From NCBI RefSeq assembly GCF_030944625.1, contig NZ_JAUSXY010000001.1, positions 1,364,001-1,428,000 on the forward strand: a DNA stretch of 64,000 nucleotides. The letters run 5' to 3'. Shown here one piece after another: positions 49,459-64,000 of the stretch. Source of the DNA: Arthrobacter sp. SLBN-112 (lineage in GTDB: Bacteria > Actinomycetota > Actinomycetes > Actinomycetales > Micrococcaceae). The number at the start of each line of letters is the position of its first letter. The stretch's first letter is position 1. A model generated the notes under the pieces. It was given only the letters and a program-made list of their open reading frames with translations, searched no databases and was not told where the DNA came from. The position numbers and the translations under genes are program-made.

Positions 49459-50573
49459 ATGAGCTGTTCCAGCCCCTCACTCTTCGGCGACTGACAATAC
49501 CTAACCGCATCTGGATGTCTCCCATGATGCAGTTCTCCTCCTATCCGTCCGGACCCGAGACAGGTGCAGCCACTGATTGGCACTTCCAGCACTTCGCAGC
49601 CCGCGCACTGGGCGGTGCAGGCCTGGCCATGGTCGAAGCAACCGCCATCAGCCCGGAGGGGCGAAGCAGCCGCTTTGATCTGGGCTTGTGGAATGACCGA
49701 CAGGCTACGTCTCACCGCAGAATCATCAAGTTCTTGCACGACCACAAGACCGCGGCCGGCATCCAACTGGTCCACGCCGGCCGCAAGGCAGCCACCGGCC
49801 GGCCCTGGGAAAACGAAAGTACTGAAGATGGCATGTGGCAGCGCGTGGCGCCCAGCGCTGTCCCTTTTGGCGGCCTGGCCGCCCCGAAGGAGCTGACCCG
49901 CGCGGAAATCCATGCTCTCGTCCGGCAGTTTGCTCACAGCGCCCGGCTGGCCAACCTGGCGGGCTTTGATGTGCTTGAGCTCCATGGGGCCCATGGCTAC
50001 CTGATTCACCAGTTTCTGTCGCCGGCTTCCAATCACCGCACCGATGAGTACGGCGGATCCCTGGCAAACCGGATGAGGTTCGCGGTGGAAGTCGTTGATG
50101 CTGTGCGTCAAGAGTGGCCCGTTGATAAGCCGTTGTTCTTCCGGGTATCAGCGACTGACTGGCTGGCGGGAGACGCCGACGACGAACGCCGCGGGTGGAC
50201 CAGCAGCGAGTCGGTCCTGCTTGCAAAAGAGTTAAAGGACCACGGAGTGGACCTGTTCGATGTCTCCACCGGAGGCATCGTGCCGGACGCGAAGATTCCT
50301 GTACGGCCGGGCTATCAGGTTGAATTTGCCGAACAGATACGCGAGGAAGCGTCCATCGCAACGGCGGCGGTAGGGCTCATCACGGACGCCGACCACGCTG
50401 CCCGGATCGTCAGCTCCGGCCAAGCAGATGCCGTGTTCCTTGCCCGGGAACTGTTGCGCAACCCCTACTGGGCACAGCAGGCGGCGGAGCATCTGGGCGA
50501 GCCGGCAAGGTACCCGCACCAGTATTCACGGGCTTTCAGCAGGCCAGTCCAGACCGCACTGTCCCGGTCTTGA
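49455..50573 (+). CDS. Old yellow enzyme-family NADH:flavin oxidoreductase
   Basis: A 372-residue FMN-dependent TIM barrel. Motifs are NRIWMSPMMQFSSYPSGPE, GIQLVHAGRKA, and the family-defining DVLELHGAHGYLIHQFLSP with HRTDEYGGSLANRMRF. FMN-binding segments include GLITDADHAARIV and VFLARELLRNPYWAQQAA. It probably reduces an activated C=C bond of a pathway intermediate. It overlaps the amidohydrolase by ATGA. Confidence 0.92.
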   Translation: MNELFQPLTLRRLTIPNRIWMSPMMQFSSYPSGPETGAATDWHFQHFAARALGGAGLAMVEATAISPEGRSSRFDLGLWNDRQATSHRRIIKFLHDHKTAAGIQLVHAGRKAATGRPWENESTEDGMWQRVAPSAVPFGGLAAPKELTRAEIHALVRQFAHSARLANLAGFDVLELHGAHGYLIHQFLSPASNHRTDEYGGSLANRMRFAVEVVDAVRQEWPVDKPLFFRVSATDWLAGDADDERRGWTSSESVLLAKELKDHGVDLFDVSTGGIVPDAKIPVRPGYQVEFAEQIREEASIATAAVGLITDADHAARIVSSGQADAVFLARELLRNPYWAQQAAEHLGEPARYPHQYSRAFSRPVQTALSRS

Positions 50574-50625
50574 CCCAGGACCCACCGCAAAGTACCTGCA
50601 AAAGCATCAACATAAGGAGCCATAA

Positions 50626-51321
50626 GTGATCACACTCGATCACATCGCGGTCTGGTCTGACAACCTGTACCGCACCACCGTGGGACTCAGCCGACAAACC
50701 GGCATCGGGTCTTCCGACGGTGGTTACTTCCCCGGCCTGGGGCTGGGCCAAAAGATCATCTCGCTGGGCAACTACGTGTACATCGAAGTAGAGAGCATCG
50801 TTGACCATCGCATGATCAGGGACCGCGAACCCATGGCTCTTGAACTGGAGCGCCAAACAGGTTCTGGCGATTGCTTTGCCGGATTGTGCTTGCGCACTGA
50901 CTCCATGGACGAGATCCACGAACTCGCCAGAGCCCATGGACTCACGCCAATGGAAGGAATATCCGGCGGGAAAGTCTCCATGGTCCCCTCGGCGGATAAA
51001 CCACCGATTCCCCACACTCCCGATTTCTGGAATTCCTGGCGGATTGGGAAGCCGAACGTCTACTACGTCCCGGACTTGAGCAGGCATTCCAGCCTGGCAC
51101 CTGTCCAGCAGGGAACCGGCGACGTCAAGGGCGCAGGCGTCATCTCGATCGAAATCGGTGGCACCGAGGCCGATCTGCAGGCGTGGCTGGGCGATGTTGC
51201 CAGCGCGCGGCAGCTCGGCGTCGACATCACCTACAACGGCGGACCTGACGGGCTCTACGCGGTCACCTTTGATTCCTCCGTTGGACCGCAAACCATCCGG
51301 CTAAACCCCATCACCCTCTAA
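50626..51321 (+). CDS. VOC-superfamily (glyoxalase-like) protein
   Basis: A 231-residue vicinal-oxygen-chelate protein (LDHIAVWSDNLYRTTVG..., KIISLGNYVYIEVES, VISIEIGGTEADLQAWL). The length is consistent with a glyoxalase_3-type or ring-cleavage enzyme. Candidate metal ligands are the H of LDHIAVW and the E of VYIEVES. The GTG at 50626 has AAGGAG upstream. It fits as an extradiol-type cleavage or isomerising step, which I cannot specify. A 17-bp tandem duplication overlaps its stop. Confidence 0.8.
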   Translation: MITLDHIAVWSDNLYRTTVGLSRQTGIGSSDGGYFPGLGLGQKIISLGNYVYIEVESIVDHRMIRDREPMALELERQTGSGDCFAGLCLRTDSMDEIHELARAHGLTPMEGISGGKVSMVPSADKPPIPHTPDFWNSWRIGKPNVYYVPDLSRHSSLAPVQQGTGDVKGAGVISIEIGGTEADLQAWLGDVASARQLGVDITYNGGPDGLYAVTFDSSVGPQTIRLNPITL

Positions 51322-51336
51322 ACCCCATCACCCTCT
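51303..51336. repeat. 17-bp perfect tandem duplication across the VOC gene stop codon
   Basis: AAACCCCATCACCCTCT occurs at 51303-51319 and again at 51320-51336. Each copy encodes the end NPITL followed by TAA, so the second copy lies just after the stop. It looks like a recent slippage or unequal-exchange event. Confidence 0.85.
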
Positions 51337-51370
51337 AACCCAACTCCACTCCCCAATTACAGGAGCCAAA

Positions 51371-52678
51371 ATGTCAGTAACCATTGCAGACGTCGAAGGG
51401 CAAACCAAAGCCCAAAGGGTGCGTCGTGCTGCCTTCTCCGGGTTCTTTGGCAGCGCCCTCGAATACTACGATTTCATCATCTACGGCACTGCCGCGGCCC
51501 TTGTCTTCGGCAAAGTGTTCTTCTCCGACATGTCAGGCGGAGCAGGAGCCTTGGTGTCCGTCGCAACCTTCGGGGTCGCCTATGTTGCCCGTCCTTTCGG
51601 CGCCATATTCTGGGGCCACATCGGTGATCGGCTGGGCCGCAGGACTGCCCTGATGCTCTCCATAGGCTTGATGGGTGGCGCCACCTTCCTCATTGGCGTC
51701 CTCCCTTCCTATGGAAGCATCGGTTTGGCGGCTCCGATCCTCCTGGTGGTTCTTCGGCTCCTGCAGGGCATCTCGGCAGGGGGAGAGGTACCGGGATCCA
51801 GCAGCCTGACTGTAGAACACGCCCCCGACGGCAAACGGGCTTTCTACACAGCCTTCTCGATGAGCGGCATGCAACTGGGTATGTCGGTGGGAACGTTGGT
51901 CTTCCTGCCGCTTGCCGCAATGCCCCAGGAACAGCTTGTTTCGTGGGGATGGCGCATCCCATTCCTTCTCAGCGGCATCTTGACACTCATTGCGTACCTC
52001 CTCAGGCGAAACCTTGAAGAACCTGAAGTCTTCAAGGAGGTACGCGAGGAAGGCAAAACAGATTCCCTGCCCATCGTTACCCTTCTGCGTTTCCACTGGA
52101 AAGCCACGCTCCGCGTACTTGTCTGCAGTTGCATCAACGTCGTGGGCACCATCTTCAACGTGTTTACCCTGGCTTACGTGACGCAGAACCAAGGCGTCTC
52201 CAGCGTCACCATGCTGGTAGCGGTGTCTGTGGGAAACATTGGTGCCGCAGTGATGGCACCCGTTGTGGGTATCTGGGCGGACCGTTTCGGACGCCGCCCC
52301 GTCTACATCATCGGCGCACTGGGTGCCAGTTCCACGCTGTTCGTCCTGTTCAACGCTATCGACTCGGGCAACGTCTTCCTTCTGCTCATCGCAGCGGTCT
52401 TGGGCATCAGCGTCTTTTACAGCATGGCCATCGGCGTCGGCGCTGCCTACTACGCGGAACAGTTCCCATCCAAGGTGCGGTACACCGGAATGGCAGTAGG
52501 GCTCATGCTCGGATTGGTGGCTGCAGGTTTCGCTCCGACCATCGCCCAGGCGCTCGGCGCCGGACCAAGCTCGTGGCAGCCGGCAGTGTGGATGTGCGTG
52601 GCGGTGGGCATCCTGGGCGCCATCGCAGCGCTGGCCGGACCGGAAACCGGCCGCAAAACCACCCGCGAACTCGGGTAG
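51371..52678 (+). CDS. MHS-family MFS transporter
   Basis: A 435-residue metabolite:H+ symporter. Its opening GFFGSALEYYDFIIYGTAAA is diagnostic of the MHS (ShiA/ProP-like) subfamily. Other marks are GHIGDRLGRRTALML, GISAGGEVPGSSSLTVEHA and IWADRFGRRPVYIIGAL. The substrate is likely an aromatic or hydroxylated organic acid feeding the cluster. It is the last gene of the catabolic run. ACAGGAG precedes the ATG. Confidence 0.88.
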   Translation: MSVTIADVEGQTKAQRVRRAAFSGFFGSALEYYDFIIYGTAAALVFGKVFFSDMSGGAGALVSVATFGVAYVARPFGAIFWGHIGDRLGRRTALMLSIGLMGGATFLIGVLPSYGSIGLAAPILLVVLRLLQGISAGGEVPGSSSLTVEHAPDGKRAFYTAFSMSGMQLGMSVGTLVFLPLAAMPQEQLVSWGWRIPFLLSGILTLIAYLLRRNLEEPEVFKEVREEGKTDSLPIVTLLRFHWKATLRVLVCSCINVVGTIFNVFTLAYVTQNQGVSSVTMLVAVSVGNIGAAVMAPVVGIWADRFGRRPVYIIGALGASSTLFVLFNAIDSGNVFLLLIAAVLGISVFYSMAIGVGAAYYAEQFPSKVRYTGMAVGLMLGLVAAGFAPTIAQALGAGPSSWQPAVWMCVAVGILGAIAALAGPETGRKTTRELG

Positions 52679-52751
52679 CGGCAGGCCCGGTCAAGAACGA
52701 TTGCGCACAAACGACGGATCAATTCCGGTGGCCATATTCAAAGAGACGGAA

Positions 52752-53015
52752 ATGTCGGTAGCGGTTGACGCGGACGATCCGCACACCCAGAAAAATGAAC
52801 TGATGCGCGCCATCGAAATCGCAGAGCTTGAGGCCGGCCTTTTGGGCGGTGCCGGGGTCGTGATCACCCAGCACGACTACTGGTCCTTCTCCGTCACGCC
52901 AACCTTTGAGGTTCCGTTTGGCCAAAAGGAGGAGCGACGGCAATGGCTTTCCCTTCTCGGGGAGGCTGGACCGTCAAATGTCCCAGCGATGCGCGGTCAA
53001 GGATCACACCGCTGA
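52752..53015 (+). CDS. Small hypothetical protein
   Basis: An 87-residue frame beginning MSVAVDADDPHTQKNELMRA and containing a helix (IEIAELEAGLLGGAG) and the strand-like VVITQHDYWSFSVTPTFEVP. The composition is protein-like and it follows a moderate ribosome site (AGACGGA). TTG at 52701 and GTG at 52728 are alternative starts. I recognise no family. Confidence 0.48.
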   Translation: MSVAVDADDPHTQKNELMRAIEIAELEAGLLGGAGVVITQHDYWSFSVTPTFEVPFGQKEERRQWLSLLGEAGPSNVPAMRGQGSHR

Positions 53016-53046
53016 CGGTCGCCTTGGACCGATCAGCCAAAGCGTT

Positions 53047-53081
53047 CGGAACCTCCCGTGTCTGGGACACGGGAGGTTCCG
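53047..53081. terminator. Hairpin terminator
   Basis: CGGAACCTCCCGTGTC (53047-53062) pairs with its complement (53066-53081) around a TGG loop, giving a 16-bp perfect stem. It would end transcription of the small upstream gene. Confidence 0.8.
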
Positions 53082-53179
53082 GAGCCGAGTCCCAGGCGGC
53101 GCCCGACGCCTGAGCTCGATTCGCAGCACGGGCCCCGATCGAGCCAGGGAATACAGCAATTAGTTGAACGGAAAATCTC

Positions 53180-53500
53180 GTGACGATGCATGCAAACTGC
53201 AAACGTGAAGCTGAACATCCTGCAATGCGGGCTGTCGTCGAGCCGCGCACTCCCTCCATCCACATGCGGGCTTTCATCACCTGGACGGCAATCTTTCCCT
53301 TGGTGTCTACCGGCATGCTTGTGCTGGGGCCTCTGATGGAGGGGTGGCACCCGGTCCTCCGGGCGCTTCTTCTCACTGCACTGGTCGTGCCTCTGGCGGT
53401 CTACCTTGTGGTGCCACGGCTGCTGGCGGCCTACGGTGCGCTTGCACGCAAGGTGAACATCGCTCGCCCGACCCACACCGCACGCCGCAATAAGACCTGA
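53180..53500 (+). CDS. Small two-span membrane protein
   Basis: A 106-residue protein with two predicted spans (FITWTAIFPLVSTGMLVLGP and ALLLTALVVPLAVYLVVPRL). It resembles the membrane tail attached to some ABM-domain proteins, but no such domain is present here. It may act alone or with a partner elsewhere. GTG at 53180 is used; ATG at 53186 or 53225 is possible. Confidence 0.62.
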   Translation: MTMHANCKREAEHPAMRAVVEPRTPSIHMRAFITWTAIFPLVSTGMLVLGPLMEGWHPVLRALLLTALVVPLAVYLVVPRLLAAYGALARKVNIARPTHTARRNKT

Positions 53501-53631
53501 ACCGGAGCCTGCCGTACGCCGTCAGTGAACCCTGAAACTTCCTCCAACAACGCCCGGTCAAGTCCCAGTTTCCGGACGTACACTGACCTTCGCACCACGT
53601 TTGTGGACACACCGTCAGGTTGGAGCCGCCC

Positions 53632-55380
53632 ATGCTCTGGAAGCTACTCGTTGAATACCTCAGGCCGCACCGTCCGTTGCTGGCCGCCGTCGTCGTTTTC
53701 CAGCTGGCGCAGTCCATCGCATCCCTGTACCTGCCCACGCTGAACGCGGACATCATCGACCAGGGCGTGGCCCGGGGTGATACCGGCTACATCATGTCCA
53801 CCGGCAGCGTCATGCTGCTGATCACGCTGGCGCAGATCGCGTGCGCCGTGGTGGCGGTGTATTTCGGTGCGAAGGCGGCGATGGGCCTGGGCCGGGACTT
53901 GCGTGGCGCCATCTTTGAACGGGTGGGCGAGTTCTCCGAGCAGGAGGTCACCAAATTCGGCGCCCCCAGCCTCATCACCCGCTCCACCAACGATGTCCAG
54001 CAGGTCCAGCAGCTGGTGCTGATGTCCGCCACGCTGATGGTGGCCGCGCCCATGCTCAGCATCGGCGGGGTGATCATGGCCATCCGGCAGGACGCCCAGC
54101 TGTCCTGGCTGATTGCCGTGTGTGTCCCGGTGCTGCTGATCGCCGTAGGGCTCATTGTCACCCGCATGGTGCCGCTGTTCCGCAAGATGCAGACCCGGAT
54201 CGACACCGTGAACCGGGTGCTGCGCGAGCAGCTGACCGGCATCCGGGTGGTGCGGGCGTTCGTGCGCGAGGACATGGAGACGGAGCGGTTCGCCGGCGCC
54301 AACAGTGACGTCACGGATGTTGCCCTGCGCGCCGGCCGGCTGATGGCGCTCATGTTCCCCGTGGTCATGCTTGTCCTGAACATTTCCAGCGTGGCTGTGA
54401 TCTGGTTCGGTTCGTTCCGGATCGAGGACGGGTCCATGCAGGTGGGCACCCTGATCGCGTTCCTGAGCTACCTGATGCAGATTCTGATGTCCGTCATGAT
54501 GGCAACGTTCATGGCCGTCATGATCCCTCGCGCCTCGGTGTCCGCGGACCGCATCGGCGAGGTGCTGGGCACCAGTTCCAGCGTCCTGCCGCCGGAGAAC
54601 CCGGTCACCAGCGCGGCGTTCGCCGGCAAGCCGCGGCGCGGCGAGCTGGAAATGCGCGACGTCGGATTCGCCTACCCGGGTGCCGACCAGCCCGTCCTGT
54701 CCGGCATCAGCTTCACCGCCCGCGCGGGTGAGGTGACGGCGATCATCGGCAGCACCGGCTCGGGCAAGACCACCCTGGTGAACCTGATGCCGCGGCTCTT
54801 CGACGTTACCTCCGGGGCGGTGCTGATGGACGGCGTGAACGTCAGGGACCTGGACCCGGACCTGCTGTGGGGGCATATCGGCTTGGTGCCGCAGCGGCCG
54901 TACCTGTTCTCCGGCACCGTGCGCAGCAACCTGCTGTACGGCAACCCGGACGCCACCGAGGATGAGCTGTGGACTGCGCTGGAGATCGCGCAGGCCAGGG
55001 ACTTCGTGGAGCGGATGGAGGAGGGGCTGGACGCGGCCATCTCGCAGGGCGGCACCAACGTCTCCGGCGGCCAGCGGCAGCGGCTGGCTATCGCCCGGGC
55101 CCTGGTGAAGCGGCCCGAGCTCTACATTTTTGATGATTCGTTCTCGTCCCTGGACACCGGCACCGACGCCCGGCTGCGGCAGGCGCTCAAGCGCAGCACG
55201 GCCGGGGCAACCATGGTAATCATCGCCCAGCGGGTGTCCAGCATTGTGGAGGCGGACCGGATTTTGGTGCTCGACGACGGCAGGATCGTTGCGCAGGGCA
55301 CGCACCACGAGTTGCTGGAGACTTCGGAGACGTACCGCGAGATTGTCTCGTCCCAGCTGGCAGCGGAGGAAACGGTATGA
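53632..55380 (+). CDS. ABC exporter half-transporter, degenerate ATP site subunit
   Basis: A 582-residue type IV ABC exporter with six N-terminal membrane spans and an NBD. Walker A is GSTGSGKTT (residues near 371-379), the signature is VSGGQRQR (near 477), and Walker B is YIFDDSFSSLD, where the catalytic Glu is Asp. The H-loop is IIAQRVSSI, with Gln in place of the switch His. These changes mark a non-catalytic site, as in TM287 of TM287/288-type heterodimers. The next gene overlaps by ATGA and encodes the partner. Likely exported substrates are drugs, lipids or peptides. Confidence 0.9.
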   Translation: MLWKLLVEYLRPHRPLLAAVVVFQLAQSIASLYLPTLNADIIDQGVARGDTGYIMSTGSVMLLITLAQIACAVVAVYFGAKAAMGLGRDLRGAIFERVGEFSEQEVTKFGAPSLITRSTNDVQQVQQLVLMSATLMVAAPMLSIGGVIMAIRQDAQLSWLIAVCVPVLLIAVGLIVTRMVPLFRKMQTRIDTVNRVLREQLTGIRVVRAFVREDMETERFAGANSDVTDVALRAGRLMALMFPVVMLVLNISSVAVIWFGSFRIEDGSMQVGTLIAFLSYLMQILMSVMMATFMAVMIPRASVSADRIGEVLGTSSSVLPPENPVTSAAFAGKPRRGELEMRDVGFAYPGADQPVLSGISFTARAGEVTAIIGSTGSGKTTLVNLMPRLFDVTSGAVLMDGVNVRDLDPDLLWGHIGLVPQRPYLFSGTVRSNLLYGNPDATEDELWTALEIAQARDFVERMEEGLDAAISQGGTNVSGGQRQRLAIARALVKRPELYIFDDSFSSLDTGTDARLRQALKRSTAGATMVIIAQRVSSIVEADRILVLDDGRIVAQGTHHELLETSETYREIVSSQLAAEETV

Positions 55381-57434
55381 GCACGCACCGCGCAGGAACC
55401 CGCCCCGCCGGAGCCGGCCCGGGCGCAGGTGCGCGCGCTGGAACCTCTGGTGGCGGCAAAGGCGGCCAGGCCGACGTCGTACGGATCCCGCGCCCGGCCG
55501 GCGGACCCGGCAGGGGCGGACCGTTCGCCGGGATGAATGTGCCGGCGGAGAAGGCGATGAACTTCAGCGGCTCGGCGAAGCGGCTGCTGGCCACCCTGCG
55601 GCCGGAACGGCTGTGGCTGGTGCTGGTGCTGTTCATGGCCGTGGCGGGCGTGGCGCTGCAGGTGATAGGGCCGCGGCTGCTGGGTGAGGGCACCAACCTG
55701 ATTTTCTCCGGCGTGGTGTCCAAGCAGCTGCCGCCGGGCGTGACTCAGGCGCAGCTGATTGCGCAGCTGCGGGCGGCGGGGGAGAACCAGAAGGCGGACA
55801 TGCTCAGCGCCATGACGCTGACGCCCGGTGCGGGGATCGATTTCGCGGCGCTGGGCAGCGTGCTGACGTGGGCGCTGGTGCTGTATGTGCTGGCGTCGGC
55901 GTTCATGTGGGGGCAGGCGTATGTGCTCAACGGCGTGGTGCAGCGGACGGTGTTCGGGCTGCGCGAGCAGATCGAGGCGAAGATCAACCGCCTGCCGCTG
56001 CGGTATTTCGACTCGATCCAGCGCGGTGAGCTGCTGAGCCGGGTCACCAATGATGTGGACAACATTTCGCAGAGCCTGCAGCAGTCCATCAGCCAGGCGG
56101 TGACCTCGGTGCTGTCCGTGGTGGGCGTACTGGTGATGATGTTCATCCTTTCGCCCACGCTGGCGCTGATCGCGCTGGTGACCATTCCGCTGACGCTGGG
56201 CATCACCGCGCTGATCGCCAAGCGCTCACAGAAGCTGTTCGTGCAGCAGTGGAAGAATACGGGCGAGCTGAACGGGCAGATCGAGGAAACCTACACCGGG
56301 CACGCGCTGGTAAAGGTGTTCGGCCGGCAGCGTGAGGTGGGGGAGCGGTTCCGGCAGAAGAACGCGGAGCTGTATGAGGCGAGTTTCGGGGCGCAGTTCA
56401 TTTCCGGGCTGATCATGCCGGCCATGACGTTCATCGGCAACCTGGTGTACGTGGGGATCGCTGTGGTGGGCGGCCTGCAGGTGGCGTCCGGGGCGATGCA
56501 GCTGGGCGATGTGCAGGCGTTCATCCAGTACTCGCGGCAGTTCACCCAGCCGCTGGCGCAGCTGGGGTCCATGGCCAACTTGCTGCAGTCCGGTGTGGCT
56601 TCTGCTGAGCGGGTGTTCGAGCTGTTGGATACGGAGGAGCAGTCCGCTGATCCTGTGGGTGCTTCTTTGCAGAGCCCTGACGGTGCCGGGCGCGGGCGGC
56701 TGGTGTTTGAGGATGTGTCCTTCTCGTACTCGCCGGACAAGCCGCTGATTTCCGGGCTGTCCTTGGTGGCGGAGCCGGGGCAGACGGTGGCGATTGTAGG
56801 GCCGACCGGTGCGGGCAAGACGACGCTGGTGAACCTGATGATGCGGTTCTACGAGCTGGATGCCGGCCGGATCACGCTGGACGGCGTGGACATCACCACC
56901 ATGACGCGGAACGATCTGCGCTCGCGGATGGGGATGGTGCTGCAGGATACGTGGCTGTTCGGCGGGACCATCCGGGACAACATCGCATACGGGCGGCCAA
57001 CTGCTTCCTCGGACGAGATCCTGGAGGCGGCTACTGCGACGTACGTGGACCGGTTCGTGCACTCGCTGCCCGAGGGGTACGACACGGTGCTGGATGACGA
57101 GGGCGCCAACGTGTCCGCGGGTGAGAAGCAGTTGCTGACGATTGCCCGGGCCTTCCTGGCGCAGCCTTCTGTTCTGATCCTGGATGAGGCGACGTCCTCG
57201 GTGGATACCCGGACCGAGGTGCTGGTGCAGAAGGCCATGAGCGCGCTGCGGTCCGACCGGACGTCCTTCGTGATCGCGCACCGCCTGTCCACGATCCGCG
57301 ACGCCGACCTCATCCTGGTGATGGAGGCCGGGCAGATCGTGGAGCAGGGGAACCACGCGTCACTGCTGGGCGCCGGCGGGGCTTACGCCCGGCTGTACGA
57401 GGCGCAGTTCGCGGCGCCGGTGGCGGAGGTTTAA
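55377..57434 (+). CDS. ABC exporter half-transporter, catalytic subunit
   Basis: A 685-residue partner of the preceding gene. It starts with about 60 disordered Gly/Pro/Arg-rich residues, then six spans and an NBD. Walker A is GPTGAGKTT (near 474-482), Walker B is ILDEATSSVD with the catalytic Glu, and the H-loop is VIAHRLSTI. The signature is changed to NVSAGEKQLL, which complements the degenerate site of the first subunit. Together they form a heterodimer with one active and one inactive site, as in TM287/288 and BmrCD. Confidence 0.92.
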   Translation: MSTHRAGTRPAGAGPGAGARAGTSGGGKGGQADVVRIPRPAGGPGRGGPFAGMNVPAEKAMNFSGSAKRLLATLRPERLWLVLVLFMAVAGVALQVIGPRLLGEGTNLIFSGVVSKQLPPGVTQAQLIAQLRAAGENQKADMLSAMTLTPGAGIDFAALGSVLTWALVLYVLASAFMWGQAYVLNGVVQRTVFGLREQIEAKINRLPLRYFDSIQRGELLSRVTNDVDNISQSLQQSISQAVTSVLSVVGVLVMMFILSPTLALIALVTIPLTLGITALIAKRSQKLFVQQWKNTGELNGQIEETYTGHALVKVFGRQREVGERFRQKNAELYEASFGAQFISGLIMPAMTFIGNLVYVGIAVVGGLQVASGAMQLGDVQAFIQYSRQFTQPLAQLGSMANLLQSGVASAERVFELLDTEEQSADPVGASLQSPDGAGRGRLVFEDVSFSYSPDKPLISGLSLVAEPGQTVAIVGPTGAGKTTLVNLMMRFYELDAGRITLDGVDITTMTRNDLRSRMGMVLQDTWLFGGTIRDNIAYGRPTASSDEILEAATATYVDRFVHSLPEGYDTVLDDEGANVSAGEKQLLTIARAFLAQPSVLILDEATSSVDTRTEVLVQKAMSALRSDRTSFVIAHRLSTIRDADLILVMEAGQIVEQGNHASLLGAGGAYARLYEAQFAAPVAEV

Positions 57435-57447
57435 GCTACGGCAAGGG

Positions 57448-57600
57448 CTATGTTGCCGGTGAAGTACGCTCCGCCCGACGACGCAGAACAATGTAGCGGG
57501 CCACCAGCCATAGCCCCAGCGGCACCAACACAATTCCGGTAATCAACCGAAGGGCATCGACGGGTGTCCACGTCAGAAAAATGACTGCCCATATGAGCAT
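57448..57600 (-). CDS. 50-residue two-span membrane protein
   Basis: A short frame not easily seen because of its length: MLIWAVIFLTWTPVDALRLI, then TGIVLVPLGLWLVARYIVL, ending in RRRAERTSPAT. It would form two membrane helices with a basic cytoplasmic tail. GCAGGAA stands seven bases before the ATG. It is convergent with the ABC exporter, whose stop is 14 bases from its own. No family is recognised. Confidence 0.55.
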   Translation of the reverse strand: MLIWAVIFLTWTPVDALRLITGIVLVPLGLWLVARYIVLRRRAERTSPAT

Positions 57601-57883
57601 AAATTTCCTGCAACGAGTCCGGACACCATTGGCCTTCTATTCACCGCCGCAACCCCCTAATTTTGGCCAAGCTCGGAAAGCTCTTATTCTCAATAGCGAA
57701 CTCCAGTGAAGCTGACAGCTGAGGGATGCAATAGATCGCCCGTTCACGACTGTGGGCGGAAGAACTTGATGGCAGAGACATCGCCACCCTGATCCTGAAC
57801 CGGCGGATCGGGATGGCGCGGCACCATACGTGGCTGATCGGGCTCCGTTCGCCCACGTTTCGTCTGACTTCGGGTTACGCTCG
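57601..57883. other. Intergenic segment with an ABC-transporter NBD remnant
   Basis: No intact gene is seen. On the plus strand, 57762-57845 reads as a decayed piece of an ABC NBD: ELDGRDIATLILNRRIGMAR, followed by HHTWLIG. It matches the LDGVDITTMTRN...RMGMVLQDTWLFGG region of the adjacent exporter (56877-56970) at both protein and DNA level. It is probably a duplicated, degenerating fragment marking an old recombination junction. Confidence 0.55.
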
Positions 57884-57925
57884 GTTCTGGGACCGACTTC
57901 GGTTGGCCGAAGCCGGTCCCAGAAC
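57884..57925 (-). terminator. Hairpin terminator of the OLD-like gene
   Basis: GTTCTGGGACCGACTTCGG (57884-57902) pairs with 57907-57925 with a single A/C mismatch and a TTGG loop. It lies 16 bases beyond the stop of the minus-strand ATPase gene. Confidence 0.8.
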
Positions 57926-57940
57926 GGGCGACACTTTCCT

Positions 57941-59440
57941 TTAGCTATTACGACTAAAGGATGGTAAGGCCGACAAAAGTTCGCCCACGAAGTCCTTTCG
58001 GATCTGTTCGTCAAGCATGTCCTCGATCCAGACATCGCAAGCTGATTCCCAGATGCGGGATTTTCGAATGTGTGCTGGCAGTTTTTCAGCTATTCGTTCG
58101 GTCCAAACGTGGTGTTTCTGGGGAATTCGCTTCGCATGCTCCCACCCGTCGGCAAGGTCTCCCTCACGCACACCGAGTCGCTCAGCCACGATTCGCCAGC
58201 CATCGGTGGTGAGGCCTTCGTAAACTACTCTCTCCGGGGCCGCTCCGCCGGGCATCACGGTGCACCCCGGGCTAGCCGACTGATCTCCGTCGAGGACGCC
58301 AGTTACCAGTCCTGGCAAGCGGCCCTGCTCCGCCATCAGGCCTAGCGTTTTCACTGAACTAGCGGGCCCTGCAATTATGACCGCGAGCCGAGAAAGCGAA
58401 TCCGGATCAGTGAACGCGATAAAGCGATGGATCAGGTACTCGGCTTTGTCGTCCTCACAGTACAGAACCAGCTCAGGATGTGCTTCGTCGTCCATCAGGG
58501 ACAGCGCCAGCTCTGTCGTTGCACCGTAGATAACTTCCTTGATGCCCTGTTCATCTGTAGTCAAGACAAGTCGGGCTTCGGGCGGCAGTTGCTCAAGGAC
58601 GTATTGGGAGTGAGTCGAGACGATGATCTGAAGCCGGTTCTTCTGCGCCAACTCGATTAGTTCAGTCATGAGCCGGCGTTGTGCACGGGGATGGAGCGAG
58701 GCCTCTACCTCATCGATGATCACGAGTGAGTGTCTTGGGGCGTTCTGAAGCAGAGCCACGAGGTCAGCCGTTGCGTCTTCGCCTGCGCCCTGGTGAAAAT
58801 TAGAGTACTTGCGGCCATCCCTGCTCAGGACCCCGACCTGCTTGTTACTGCTTTGAACAATCTCGCCGCTGTCATAGGTGCGGTCCAGCACGCGGGAGAG
58901 TACGCCCAGATACTCCTCATCGATCAGGGCGGAGAAGTTCTTGTCGGCCATTTTTGTCATCGCGATTCGACCGTATCCAATCAAGGTATCGATGGGCTGA
59001 GTCCTCGAGATATCTAAGAAGAAGACCGGTCGCTTTGGGCGTTCAGGCATTCCCCGCCACCGACTAGTGACTTTACCGACTGCATAGATAGAAGTATCGG
59101 TGCCTTGTCTGGCTTGGTAGGCGAGTTTGGCATTGCTGACCACTTCCCAAGGGGTGGTCGGAAAAAAATCGTCTGGCGAGTATGTCTGCGCAAGCGTCGC
59201 TGCGGCTGATGGATCTGCGGAGTACGAAGCGGCGGCCGCTTTGAGGATTGTGCTCTTCCCAGCGCCGTTTTCTCCTGCTATGGCCACAACCGGGAAACGG
59301 AACTCAACTTTCTGTCCTGACCATCCTCGGATTCCACTGACACTGACAGAGTCGAGGAACTTTGGCCACCCTTTAGAGCTATTTCGTTCTGTAGCCCAAT
59401 CGGAAGTGAGCTTGGGGAGTGTTTTTGCCAGTCGTGCCAT
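57941..59440 (-). CDS. OLD-family/AAA15 ATPase with TOPRIM-like domain
   Basis: A 499-residue SMC/ABC-type ATPase. Walker A is GENGAGKST (56-64), a signature-like FHQGAGED is at 215-222, Walker B is LVIIDEVEASLHP (D243, E244), and the His switch is VSTHSQYVL (274-282). The C-terminal part has the TOPRIM-like acidic pattern LVLYCEDDKAEYLI (E329) and GVLDGDQS (D384, D386). OLD-family proteins of this design are nucleases, often in phage defence. It is divergent from the HEPN-motif protein, and base composition is more AT-rich than in flanking genes. Its own function is unproven. Confidence 0.82.
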   Translation of the reverse strand: MARLAKTLPKLTSDWATERNSSKGWPKFLDSVSVSGIRGWSGQKVEFRFPVVAIAGENGAGKSTILKAAAASYSADPSAAATLAQTYSPDDFFPTTPWEVVSNAKLAYQARQGTDTSIYAVGKVTSRWRGMPERPKRPVFFLDISRTQPIDTLIGYGRIAMTKMADKNFSALIDEEYLGVLSRVLDRTYDSGEIVQSSNKQVGVLSRDGRKYSNFHQGAGEDATADLVALLQNAPRHSLVIIDEVEASLHPRAQRRLMTELIELAQKNRLQIIVSTHSQYVLEQLPPEARLVLTTDEQGIKEVIYGATTELALSLMDDEAHPELVLYCEDDKAEYLIHRFIAFTDPDSLSRLAVIIAGPASSVKTLGLMAEQGRLPGLVTGVLDGDQSASPGCTVMPGGAAPERVVYEGLTTDGWRIVAERLGVREGDLADGWEHAKRIPQKHHVWTERIAEKLPAHIRKSRIWESACDVWIEDMLDEQIRKDFVGELLSALPSFSRNS

Positions 59441-59989
59441 TAATTTCCTAAGCTTGTCCTAATAGTGAAGTCTTTATTCTTGTCGAGATTTGGGTTGCCG
59501 GGATGCAAGGACACGCTCGAAGGTAACAAGCCATTTACGTACACAGCTTGTGTATTCGGCAACGGCAGTCTGAGTTTGCTATTACTCAGGGCTTGATGGG
59601 CAACGCGACTTGGATGCTGGCTGATGTCGATCTGCGAGCCTGCATGGGAACTTGGCTGGCGGAACTTGTATTCCCAAATTTCCGCTCAATCGCCTGTGTG
59701 CCGAACGAGGTTGAGGCCGCAGCGGTAGACGCATCTTTATTGTCTCTCTCAAGAGATTAGCAAGAGGCGACTAACGGCGGCGCCCCGGGACAGTCGGGTT
59801 TTGCGAATGGAGTCCGATTGAGATGCCGAAAAGACTTACAGAACGTGACACTAATGACCAAGGGACGTAGCAAATTTCGGAGCGAAACATCCAAGATGTC
59901 GGGCTGCAACATCCGTTGCTCGCAGACGGAGGCCTCAAACCGATCTGTCACTATTTAGCCCGAACCAGAAGAATCCGCTACAGCGCGTA
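59441..59989. other. 549-base AT-rich intergenic region between ATPase and HEPN genes
   Basis: The divergent promoters should be here. Short frames exist (for example 59548-59760 on the plus strand, 70 codons, and 59757-59951 on the minus strand, 64 codons). They lack ribosome sites and protein-like composition, so I do not annotate them. No tRNA, att-like repeat or clear hairpin is recognised. Confidence 0.5.
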
Positions 59990-61009
59990 ATGTCCCTTCC
60001 GCAGACAAGCGACCCGAGTCTGATGCTTCAGAATTGGAGTATGGCATACAGCGGCAGAAGGTACGTTCCAAGCCTCAACGTCACGGGGCCCAGCTCCGTT
60101 CCAAAAAGCTTCCGGCACATGTTCCCGCTCGTACCCGCCCCTGTGTTTGGCGTGGCGCATCCGATTTATGGACTGGACGTGGCCGGCGAGGGTGGTCACT
60201 CCGTGATCCTTCGTACGCGCGAACAAGTTGATCGGAGGGAAGCCTTCGAAAGACTCTCTGTCGGATTAGCCCTCCTGAGCATTTACTTCGGAGTGGGGTT
60301 CAGGGAAAGGGCCGCGGGAGGCCTCGGGGGGTACTTTGCAAGTCCTAGTCCTGAAGAGTACGAGGAACCGAATTACTCTGAGGAGGTCATGACGACTATC
60401 AGTGAACTCCAACGGGCGCGGGACCCTTACCAGATACAGGCTCGCTTTACCTTCTCACGTGGCCTGGCACTCATGTCAGACCCCGAGAGTGCCATTGTCG
60501 AGTTCTTCAAGGTCATTGAACTGTTTATCAAGCAACTAGCTTGGAAGGCGGAGTTGCCGCCCGATGCAGTGAAAAACGTTCTTGAAGACAAAATCATTTT
60601 CTCCAAGAGGGTAAAGGAAGCGCTGATTGCTGAAGGAATCTTGGCAGTGGAAACAGTCGGTCTGATCTATTCCCTGAAGGAGATTCGAAACAAGTTCATT
60701 GGGCATGGAGGTATGCGTCCTGCGCTGGGAGCGCTCTTCGGTGATCCGGAAGATTACCAACAGCTACTGGAGAGACCGGAATTCAAGTACGACCCACATC
60801 TGCTTTATGGTGCGGACTTTTTCGAACGGATCCTCAACGATCTCACCCTGATAGCGGGGTTTCTGTTTGCCAAGATGCAAGGATTAGAGCCGCAAGTCTT
60901 TTTGAGAGCAGGATGTTGGAACCAAAGCAGCTCGCATGTGCACAGCGTCCTCACTGCCGAAGGCGTGCACTGGCTTACTTATGAAGAGACCCGCTTTGCC
61001 CCTTGCTAA
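59990..61009 (+). CDS. Unknown protein with C-terminal HEPN-type R-x5-H motif
   Basis: A 339-residue protein I cannot assign to a named family. The N-terminal 150 residues are beta-rich and of unknown fold. Residues about 165-290 are helical and look like a HEPN domain: AIVEFFKVIELFIKQLAWK (helix 1), LEDKIIFSKRVKEALIAEG, and the ribonuclease motif EIRNKFIGHGG with R233-x5-H239. HEPN domains with R-x4-6-H are RNases in toxins and phage-defence proteins such as ApeA. The gene is AT-rich and divergent from the OLD-like ATPase. No clear ribosome site was identified. Confidence 0.68.
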   Translation: MSLPQTSDPSLMLQNWSMAYSGRRYVPSLNVTGPSSVPKSFRHMFPLVPAPVFGVAHPIYGLDVAGEGGHSVILRTREQVDRREAFERLSVGLALLSIYFGVGFRERAAGGLGGYFASPSPEEYEEPNYSEEVMTTISELQRARDPYQIQARFTFSRGLALMSDPESAIVEFFKVIELFIKQLAWKAELPPDAVKNVLEDKIIFSKRVKEALIAEGILAVETVGLIYSLKEIRNKFIGHGGMRPALGALFGDPEDYQQLLERPEFKYDPHLLYGADFFERILNDLTLIAGFLFAKMQGLEPQVFLRAGCWNQSSSHVHSVLTAEGVHWLTYEETRFAPC

Positions 61010-61256
61010 ATTTACCCGATTTACAATCGCCTTAGTTGCGCGTTTCCGCTATATACTTGGGCCTTCGTCAGGAACAGCTGACTAAACCTCTGCGGTATCG
61101 GCGTAGCAGCCGAATATGTCCACGAGCAGAGTATGTCGTCAGGGTTCCCGGGCCAGTATTTGCGAACTGAGTAGGTGCTTCTGCGTCGATCATCACCCCA
61201 CCGTGGCACACCGACGCAGAGCGCAACGCGTCAGCCCCCGCCCGTAACCTGTTTAA

Positions 61257-61812
61257 ATGCCTCGTTTCGCACCGGACATCGAGTCCGTCCCCCGCCCGGT
61301 CCGTTCCCAGGAACTCCTCGACGCCGTGAACCACCGGGTGGTCATTGCGGACGGCGCCATGGGCACGATGCTGCAGGGCCGGGACCTCCAGCTCGAGACG
61401 GACTTCCAAAACCTGGAGGGCTGCACCGAGATCCTCAACGACACGCGGCCGGACGTCATCGCGGACATCCACGACGCCTACTTCGCCACCGGCATCGACA
61501 ACCGCATCGAGGAGCTCGCTCTCAAGGGCGCCAAAATGGCCCGCGAACGCTCCGAAGCCGCGGAAGAAATAGACGGGCGCATGCGCTGGGTCCTCGGCTC
61601 CATAGGCCCGGGCACCAAGCTCCCCAGCCTGGGCCACACCAGCTACGACTGGCTCAAGCAAACCTTCGCACTGCAGGCGGAAGGCCTCATCGACGGCGGC
61701 GCGGACGCGTTCCTTATCGAAACCAGCCAGGACCTCCTGCAGACCAAGGCCGCCGTCAACGGCTGCAAGCAGGCCATCGTCTCCAAGGGCGTCCGCCTGC
61801 GGGACCGCTGCC
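61257..61812 (+). pseudogene. metH: Truncated cobalamin-dependent methionine synthase (metH fragment)
   Basis: The N-terminal homocysteine-binding part of MetH is recognisable: MPRFAPDIESVPRPVRSQEL, VVIADGAMGTMLQGRDLQL, GRMRWVLGSIGPGTKLPSLG and FLIETSQDLLQTKAAVNGCK. Two lesions are seen. About 20 residues normally between YFATGID and NRIEELALKGA (the CVETNTFGAN-type segment) are deleted in frame. Homology then stops after KGVRL, where IFVEVTVE would follow, leaving only about 185 of some 1200 residues. The open frame continues meaninglessly to 61967. It is a non-functional remnant at the edge of the foreign-looking region. Confidence 0.85.
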
Positions 61813-61833
61813 ACTGCCGAACGTCCCCGCAGG

Positions 61834-63069
61834 CTACTGGGCCAGCAGCCCGCCGCTGGCCCAGAGCCGAACCGCCAACTGTTCACCGGTGTCGAACTCC
61901 AGCAGGGCGACCCGGCACAGTTCCTCCACGTAGCGTGTCCAGGCCGCCGCCAGTTCTTGCGCCGTAGCTTCGTCGGTGAGCTGGAAGTTGGCATATCCGA
62001 GCCCCTGCAGTACAAAGCTCACCGCGTTCCTGGACACCGGCTCTCCCGCGGAGACGCAATCATCCCGGACCTGGCGCGACAACTCTGTACGGTTGGCCGG
62101 ATGCTCCCGCAGCCGCGCCGCCATGGCCTGGAAGATCTGCCGGAACTGCGCTGCTGAGAGCGCCGGGATGTCCGTGACCCGGGCAACCTGCTCTTCAACT
62201 CCCGGCTGGGTTTCGACCGGAGCCGGGAGATCCTCGCTGGAAAACCGCTTGGCATCCCATACCCAGCCGCCCTGCACCGCCGAGTACTCCACGTCCTTGC
62301 CGATCTGCGAGACCCACGTTCCGAACTTCCCGTAGCCGCCCCAGTCCGTCTTGAGCGACGGGTCCGCAGCGAGGGCCCGGTGCGCCACCATCGCTCCCAC
62401 CACAGGCCCCGGTGCGGTGCGGATAAACTCCAGCACTTCGCGGACCCCCGGCGGTACCGCCTTGGTTTTCGCCTTGGCAGGGGCGGGAAACTGGCGCTGG
62501 TTCACGGATGCCAGGGCGCGGACTGGCTCGGCCGTGGAGCCGGTCAAGATGGAAACGAAGTCGTGGGACTCCACCACATGGTCCGCCATCTCCCGGTAGG
62601 CGAAGGCCACAGCCCCGGCGGCGATGACGGTGGTCATCCGGTCCGCGGCCCGGAACCGCTGAATCAGCGAAGTGAAGTCCGCGTCCGCTGAGGCGATAAA
62701 GAACTCTTCGATGCCCACGCTTCCGGACAGGGCATCCATGGCATCCAGCACCAGGTTGATGTCCGTGCTGCTCTTTCCACGCTGCGTCAGCGACGGGCAG
62801 TCGATCACCCGGAACCCGGCACGCGTCCAGTACGGGCGGTATTTCGAATACACCATCGGGTTCAGGTAGCAGTTGCGGATCAGGAAGCGCCGGGTCCCGT
62901 CACCGGAACCTCCGGCGGACAGGGCATCCGCCCAGTGCTTGGGATCCTCTGCGAAGCGCTTGGCCGCCAGCGGGTCGATGGCCTGCAGGCCGGTGAAAAC
63001 GTTGTCGAAGTCCACGAACATGGCCGAGCGGATGCCCGGTCGCCGCGTGGGTGGAAGCGCCTCATTCAT
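61834..63069 (-). CDS. NYN-domain putative ribonuclease with LOTUS-like modules
   Basis: A 411-residue protein. A NYN (PIN-like) domain spans about 14-175, with acidic metal residues in MFVDFDNVF (D20, D22), SSTDINLVLDAM (D103, D109) and IASADADFTSLI (D129, D131). Two helical segments follow. Residues about 208-275 (VREVLEFIRTAPGPVVGAMV) resemble OST-HTH/LOTUS, and a second, similar segment is near 325-380 (RQIFQAMAARLREHPANRTE). NYN proteins of this type are probable RNases. The ATG at 63069 starts the conserved part. Confidence 0.82.
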   Translation of the reverse strand: MNEALPPTRRPGIRSAMFVDFDNVFTGLQAIDPLAAKRFAEDPKHWADALSAGGSGDGTRRFLIRNCYLNPMVYSKYRPYWTRAGFRVIDCPSLTQRGKSSTDINLVLDAMDALSGSVGIEEFFIASADADFTSLIQRFRAADRMTTVIAAGAVAFAYREMADHVVESHDFVSILTGSTAEPVRALASVNQRQFPAPAKAKTKAVPPGVREVLEFIRTAPGPVVGAMVAHRALAADPSLKTDWGGYGKFGTWVSQIGKDVEYSAVQGGWVWDAKRFSSEDLPAPVETQPGVEEQVARVTDIPALSAAQFRQIFQAMAARLREHPANRTELSRQVRDDCVSAGEPVSRNAVSFVLQGLGYANFQLTDEATAQELAAAWTRYVEELCRVALLEFDTGEQLAVRLWASGGLLAQ

Positions 63070-63201
63070 AGGCCCAGTGTGCCAGCAACGTCCGGCTGCA
63101 ACTACCGTTTTCCGTACACAACGACACGGACGACGCCGGGTGCGTACCCGCCGTCGTCCGCTCCGTCCAAGCCGCCCAACAAAGCCGCCCCGCAAACTAC
63201 C

Positions 63202-64000
63202 TCAGTGCCACAACCCCAGCGCGAACTCGGCAATCACCGTGGACAGTAGGAACGACGCCGTGATGGCCACCAGCCCCACCGGGATGATTTTCCAGCCGAT
63301 GTTCTTCAGCAGCGGGATGTCCTTGCCCAAGGAGAGGCCCGCCAGGGTCAGCATCACCGTGGCGATGGACAGGAAGTCCACGGTCTTGACGGCCGCGTTC
63401 AGCGCCTCGGCCCCGAAGAACCACGGGCTGGAGATGTATGCGCCGATGGTCGTGATGAACACGATGGCCGAGATCTTCCGGGTGATCTTCGCCAGCGCGA
63501 TGCCGACCAGGACAAGCGCCAGCAGGACCACGTACCCCAGCACGATGGTCAGGCTGAACCCCTTCGCTGCGATCGACGCCGTGCCAATACCCAGCACCGT
63601 CAGCACAGACAGCGAGAGCCACAGCGGCAGCTTGATCGCCGCGGAGGACTCGGCCACCCGCTCACGGAACCGCCGGTTCTCCTCCGCCTGTGCGGCCTCG
63701 CGCTCAACGTCGGCAGCGGAAGCAGCCGGAGCAGCAGGAGCGGCAGCGCCAGAACCAGCAGCAACCACCTCACGGCTCTCCTGCTTCCGCGTCAGCACCC
63801 GGTAGAACTTGTCCGCCAACGGCAGCGCCACATAGATGCCCACATACACACCCAGCACCGTGGTGATCAGGTTGGACACGGCGGCCATCCCCAGGATCGC
63901 GTCCTGGTCGCCCGGGTACGCGGCGGTGATGCTCGCAACGGACGCGGCCATCATGGAACCGGACCCCACGCCGGAACCCATGGCCAGCGCCAGCGGGTCG
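63202..64000 (-). CDS. DUF3100-family membrane protein (partial, 5' end outside window)
   Basis: The last 266 or so residues of a membrane protein, open through the right edge (upstream residues read DPLALAMGSGVG). Visible features are hydrophobic spans (LGMAAVSNLITTVLGVYVGI), a cytoplasmic Ala/Glu-rich loop (EREAAQAEENRRFRERVAES), and a second set of spans ending STVIAEFALGLWH. The pattern fits DUF3100, a putative transporter family of unknown substrate. The first ATG seen inside the window is internal. Confidence 0.75.
   Translation of the reverse strand, partial: DPLALAMGSGVGSGSMMAASVASITAAYPGDQDAILGMAAVSNLITTVLGVYVGIYVALPLADKFYRVLTRKQESREVVAAGSGAAAPAAPAASAADVEREAAQAEENRRFRERVAESSAAIKLPLWLSLSVLTVLGIGTASIAAKGFSLTIVLGYVVLLALVLVGIALAKITRKISAIVFITTIGAYISSPWFFGAEALNAAVKTVDFLSIATVMLTLAGLSLGKDIPLLKNIGWKIIPVGLVAITASFLLSTVIAEFALGLWH

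Follow-up and report, generated by a model that had tools for sequence, protein, structure and literature searches.

The window analysed here is a stretch of 64,000 nucleotides from Arthrobacter sp. SLBN-112 (C1:1364001-1428000 of a 4.39 Mb single-contig genome), and all coordinates below are counted from its first letter. Toward its right end, two genes diverge from a shared spacer of 549 bases (59441..59989). On the minus strand, the ORF list, PADLOC, Pfam and a structural model place a gene for a 499-residue HEC-04-type ABC-ATPase/TOPRIM protein of OLD architecture (57941..59440); on the plus strand, the ORF list, an alignment and a model place a 339-residue ORF (59990..61009) for a probable HEPN-domain protein, whose family is narrow and has no name. 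A previous sequence-only reading had put the two ORFs at these positions, head to head and 549 bases apart, and the ORF list agrees. It had also described the block as visibly more AT-rich than its surroundings. In 500-bp windows, GC content is 49.8-58.4% from 57500 to 61249 versus 62.6-70.4% in the left flank (53000-57499) and 64.0-67.8% in the right flank (61250-63999), which upholds the description for the near flanks; it fails further left (50000-53249), where GC is only 57.4-63.4%, so that the contrast of the lower-GC block is one with its near flanks. According to the ORF list and Pfam, the genes flanking the ATPase gene are the HEPN gene, an ABC exporter, a metH fragment and an NYN gene.

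Little else was recognized around the two genes. Rfam at gathering thresholds found no RNA element in 57000-64000, a scan of the spacer found no sigma-70-like promoter (0 sites versus a shuffled mean of 1.8), and three short intergenic translations gave nothing above the Pfam cut-off. On the plus strand of the spacer, an open stretch of ~60 codons (~59590-59760) looks protein-like by eye and is possibly a gene remnant; Pfam offers nothing for it below E 0.19.

The 499-residue protein consists of an ATPase part (residues ~27-321), a TOPRIM part from ~322 onward that carries E329 and D384/D386, and a helical tail (402-491). In an alignment of 39 sequences (the window protein and 38 of the 120 relatives listed, from the 8000 best-word candidates scored), the Walker A residues (G56, G61, K62, S63 and T64), the Walker B residues (D243 and E244) and the His switch (H277) are invariant, as are E329 and D384 of the TOPRIM part, and residue 386 is Asp in 37 sequences and Glu in two. 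TOPRIM domains characteristically have a Glu after their first strand and a DxD motif after a later one. In the predicted structure (pLDDT 84.4), a strand at 324-328 precedes E329 and a strand at 378-383 precedes D384/D386. The best Foldseek match of the model is the class 1 OLD nuclease TsOLD (6p74; E 5.7e-14), which shares the ATPase, the C-terminal TOPRIM domain and the solitary gene but differs in being only 16% identical, with an overall TM-score of 0.32 and an rmsd of 18.2, values that mean that the domains are matched but not their arrangement. Pfam recognizes AAA_21/AAA_15, and the PADLOC profile of HEC-04 (PDLC04149) matches almost end to end (E 7.9e-54; residues 17-477 against positions 15-476 of the 494 in the profile). 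The ATPase and TOPRIM domains proposed in the sequence-only reading are thus borne out by the invariant residues and by the HEC-04 and OLD matches.

The protein is an additional member of HEC-04, a family that is already catalogued. The passages of PMC12111858 that deal with HEC-04 describe it, citing a 2024 preprint, as an ABC ATPase fused to a TOPRIM domain, report it as a single gene that shields Escherichia coli from T4 and T5, though not from T7 or lambda, and name IbfA as homologous. The protein here is likewise a single chain of ~500 residues with this fusion, and it is likened to HEC-04 by the profile. It differs from HEC-04/IbfA in setting, as E. coli and Salmonella were the test hosts for these (same passages), whereas its closest named relatives among the matches listed are actinobacterial; close relatives (P0022-P0028) are 79-94% identical. 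The section on OLD classes in PMC10568477 distinguishes single genes (class 1), genes that adjoin a UvrD-like helicase, as in Gabija (class 2), and retron partners (class 3). Neither a UvrD helicase nor a reverse transcriptase was found beside the ATPase gene in the ORF list and the Pfam matches of four of its neighbours, and by these surroundings the protein fits class 1. Gabija GajA has the same domain order and gives a weaker, partial profile match (1.6e-14), but no helicase gene is recognized beside the ATPase gene here, whose neighbours are instead the HEPN gene and the ABC exporter.

On the basis of its conserved motifs and its model, the 339-residue ORF probably contains a HEPN-type domain and is a probable RNA-cutting protein. 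The defining passages of PMC3710099 place an Rx4-6H motif, with a polar residue after the Arg, at the end of helix 3 of the HEPN bundle and a second motif, Ex3[KR], with its acidic residue in helix 2. Both are found here. Within a bundle of ~residues 144-300, R233-N234-x4-H239 (60686..60706, plus strand) lies at the end of the modelled helix 220-238, and E177-x3-K181 (60518..60532, plus strand) lies in the modelled helix 165-185; these are helices 3 and 2, respectively, by our own count. The Rx5H and Ex3K motifs, along with N234, are invariant in 21/21 aligned family members (the window protein and 20 relatives). Foldseek alone missed the HEPN fold, and VIA re-alignment of the Foldseek candidates put HEPN structures first. 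The earlier claim of a HEPN protein, for which conservation of R233 and H239 had been set as a check, therefore stands.

Several observations bear on the extent of the protein. Residues 1-44 are modelled below pLDDT 50, 19 of the 20 aligned relatives begin no earlier than residue 18, and the gene's database copy has 296 residues, so that the true start probably lies downstream, at residue 18 (60041) or 44 (60119). The family is narrow, with 26 proteins found (P0002 is the closest relative). None of the 21 members has a HEPN profile match in Pfam or PADLOC at E values up to 5, and no description of the family was found in the profile libraries or in the accessible portions of the literature on OLD nucleases, HEPN/ApeA, embedded defence and Sinomonas HEPN. 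Within these libraries and this literature the family appears rare, unnamed and undescribed, which is an absence of matches rather than proof. In known systems, ApeA-type standalone HEPN defence proteins are encoded by single genes and carry a C-terminal HEPN domain. The 339-residue protein shares both features but differs in that neither Pfam nor PADLOC links any of the 21 members to a family of this kind. It differs from the MNT-HEPN toxins (5yep, 6m6w) in that no nucleotidyltransferase gene is seen adjoining it in the ORF list, and in having an extra N-terminal part and no Pfam HEPN match.

The two genes lie in a variable interval (57436..63127) between an intact ABC exporter gene and a permease-like gene, the contents of which give way to other genes or almost vanish in relatives. 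The ABC gene has DNA matches in 150/150 genomes of the genus, some of them to paralogues. Relatives gave a list of 29 loci, and in each of the first 10 the ABC match ends at 57432-57436; in five of these the similarity resumes in the permease-like gene at 63126-63127, enclosing 2.76 kb (G296), 2.73 kb (G786), 3.38 kb (G039), 2.05 kb (G325) or 0.56 kb (G344) versus 5.69 kb here; the remaining five have no right anchor within the stretch examined. A palindromic repeat of 32 bp (63128..63159) marks the right border and stands at that border also in four of the five relatives with a right anchor (G296, G039, G325 and G344); a search with a related palindrome pattern gave three sites genome-wide, and none with a reversed control.

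Other genes occupy the slot in the ten relatives, with defence types among them and a nearly empty site in one. We scanned nine slot ORFs from six of the ten relatives (all except L044, L049, L050 and L051) with PADLOC. Matches were obtained to a dCTP-deaminase defence protein (1.3e-137), TIR-TM (7.3e-36), PDC-M11B (1.3e-25), an OLD gene in two overlapping ORFs (2.1e-22) and, weakly, a TIR-type effector (7.5e-8); a GNAT/PIN-like protein, an HSDR_N protein and a protein of no recognized type had none. Ten hand-picked control genes, three of them (two in L045 and one in L050) inside the crude, unanchored locus limits, gave one marginal match (9.3e-6). The defence setting that had been suggested for the pair is thus supported by the presence of defence-type genes in the same slot of relatives. 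The repeated uptake of such genes by the slot also means, however, that linkage of two genes there is weak evidence for their joint function. Two further features of these loci were observed. The OLD-type gene spread over two overlapping ORFs (L047, 3483-5290) is probably frameshifted or two-part, and a protein of ~363 residues with the same N-terminus lies beside the ABC gene in five of the ten relatives (L044, L047, L048, L050 and L052), the copy in L048 being HSDR_N by Pfam and without a PADLOC match.

Broken genes had been read at both edges of the block, and this is correct for one of them. On the left, the ABC gene (55377-57434) is intact, with 685 residues and both Pfam domains, in a region 88.5-93.5% identical to all ten relatives; beyond it there is only a stretch of 39-98 bp (~57754..57841, plus strand, by blastn) with similarity to the NBD of that gene (84.6% over 39 bp in L046, L047 and L052, 85% over 40 bp in L049, and 71% over 98 columns in L050). 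On the right, the 5' fragment of metH (61202..61798, plus strand) is truly short, with 597 versus 657 bases in another stretch of the same genome to which it is 83% identical, and it is shorter internally. Pieces from other species, with up to 91% identity (G344 and G360), are closer to it than this stretch of its own genome is. In G325 and G344 the NYN gene (61842-63162) is found at another place close to the slot, at ~80% identity.

The HEPN gene is sparse, occurring in 5/395 genomes of the family, its own and four of one other genus. The ATPase occurs in 1/395 family genomes at E 1e-40 or better and, in a second search, in 1/394 (three candidates scored per genome in each), its TOPRIM part in 1/394 class genomes (up to eight candidates scored), in every case its own; among 206 genus genomes, with all candidates scored, the TOPRIM part occurs in three, its own and two at 29-31% identity. 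The latter two belong to distant ATPase-TOPRIM relatives of 492 residues (L086, 5043-6521; L087, 4532-6010), both near a conserved GTPase-like gene, and L086 presumably also has DUF262-like and other accessory ORFs. Carriage on mobile elements was considered for each gene. The HEPN gene had no match in plasmids, phages or viral contigs, and the ATPase had none in phage records at E 1e-10. At least one distant ATPase relative (28% identity) lies on a viral contig (L080), and 14 lie on plasmids; of the five of these viewed, one adjoins a type I restriction gene and another lies near a Vsr/methyltransferase pair.

We consider it likely that the locus holds two separate defence-type genes, carried as neighbouring cargo by an insertion hotspot of the chromosome; the best reading is that the ATPase and HEPN genes were separately acquired and work separately. 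Against separate cargo, the lower-GC block is common to both genes, and so is the spacer from which they diverge, an arrangement to be expected of a co-regulated module.

The most serious rival, possible but clearly less probable, is that the HEPN gene is a toxin or a housekeeping or stress RNase that has nothing to do with phage defence and is present by chance. Near the HEPN gene in four other loci, Pfam recognizes eight of 10 ORFs, hand-picked from crude ORF calls that include some closer ORFs outside the set, and these eight belong to metabolism, transport or regulation (an ABC/TOBE ATPase, LysR- and GntR-type regulators, LamB/YcsF, a small monooxygenase, ROK, MFS and a glycosyl hydrolase). 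PADLOC gave no match for 10 ORFs there, nine from the same set and one in L008. Further, two Sinomonas genomes, L009 (S. gamaensis) and L011, share DNA downstream of the HEPN gene, as would be expected of a resident gene. The Sinomonas and Arthrobacter relatives are not apparently in defence islands, which weakens the word "defence" for this gene. Oppositely, the other pairs of HEPN loci have almost nothing in common but the HEPN gene itself, and such unrelated surroundings, together with its occurrence in so few genomes, are like those of mobile accessory genes; moreover, the copy here sits in a defence hotspot.

The sequence-only reading had instead proposed one undescribed two-gene system. 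In such a system the ATPase-TOPRIM protein would sense phage DNA and activate or restrain the HEPN RNase. The genes are adjacent, divergent and in the same compositional block, and other OLD-type proteins do have partner genes (Gabija and retrons, in the same section of PMC10568477). But the ATPase belongs to HEC-04, reported as a single gene in PMC12111858, as described above, and no pairing was seen outside this genome. Conserved adjacency had been named as a check on the proposal, and homologues that rarely neighbour each other as its refutation; in small samples the outcome was the refuting one. When all candidates were scored in the five other HEPN genomes (the four of the other genus and Arthrobacter sp. 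M4), the ATPase gave matches at an E cut-off of 0.001 in four and none in one. Each match spans 81-84 residues of the ATPase domain, with E values from 2e-5 to 5e-4, and we count none as a real relative. A tblastn search of the five HEPN loci (four of ~20 kb and one of 15.9 kb) did not find the ATPase in flanks of 5-10 kb (only ~5 kb on one side in L008; best E 0.14); the two tests use the same five genomes and so are not independent, and the sample leaves out P0022-P0028 and P0002, mostly on short contigs. Finally, none of the five plasmid relatives viewed of the 14 (25.9-27.4% identity) has an annotated HEPN neighbour, although a HEPN protein could possibly stand unannotated among the hypothetical proteins there. 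The claim of a single system is thus not supported, and we consider it improbable.

It is equally doubtful that the HEPN-like helices belong to an inactive protein or to one that is no RNase, such as an MtlR-like protein, because the invariant E177-x3-K181 and R233-N234-x4-H239 are placed as the HEPN definition requires. Least probable of all, we think, is a recent, lineage-specific module in which a usually solitary HEC-04 ATPase-TOPRIM protein would have captured a HEPN RNase as a second effector, with a shared divergent control region and one trigger that leads to cutting of both DNA and RNA.

If the two genes are indeed separate cargo, the defence function of this copy, the substrates, the triggers and the independence of action that we infer could be as follows. 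First, the product of the ATPase gene would act as a HEC-04/IbfA-type, class-1-like OLD protein. Its ABC ATPase part would dimerize and respond to a signal of infection, probably phage DNA or its processing, and its TOPRIM part would then cut DNA through E329, D384 and D386 with metal ions, which would block phage production or abort the infection. Second, the HEPN protein would act independently, as a dimer, in which paired R233 and H239, with E177 and N234, would cleave RNA (for example tRNA or mRNA) without metal. Its trigger may be infection or stress, sensed by its N-terminal part (~45-140) or by some partner.

In general, the locus adds an actinobacterial member to HEC-04, for which protection by a lone OLD-type gene is reported; a review of 2023 (PMC10568477, in the part that treats these proteins) counts protection by single OLD genes among the open questions. 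The locus draws attention as well to a HEPN family without a name and to a chromosomal slot of the genus with turnover of defence-type genes, which can be mined for more of them.
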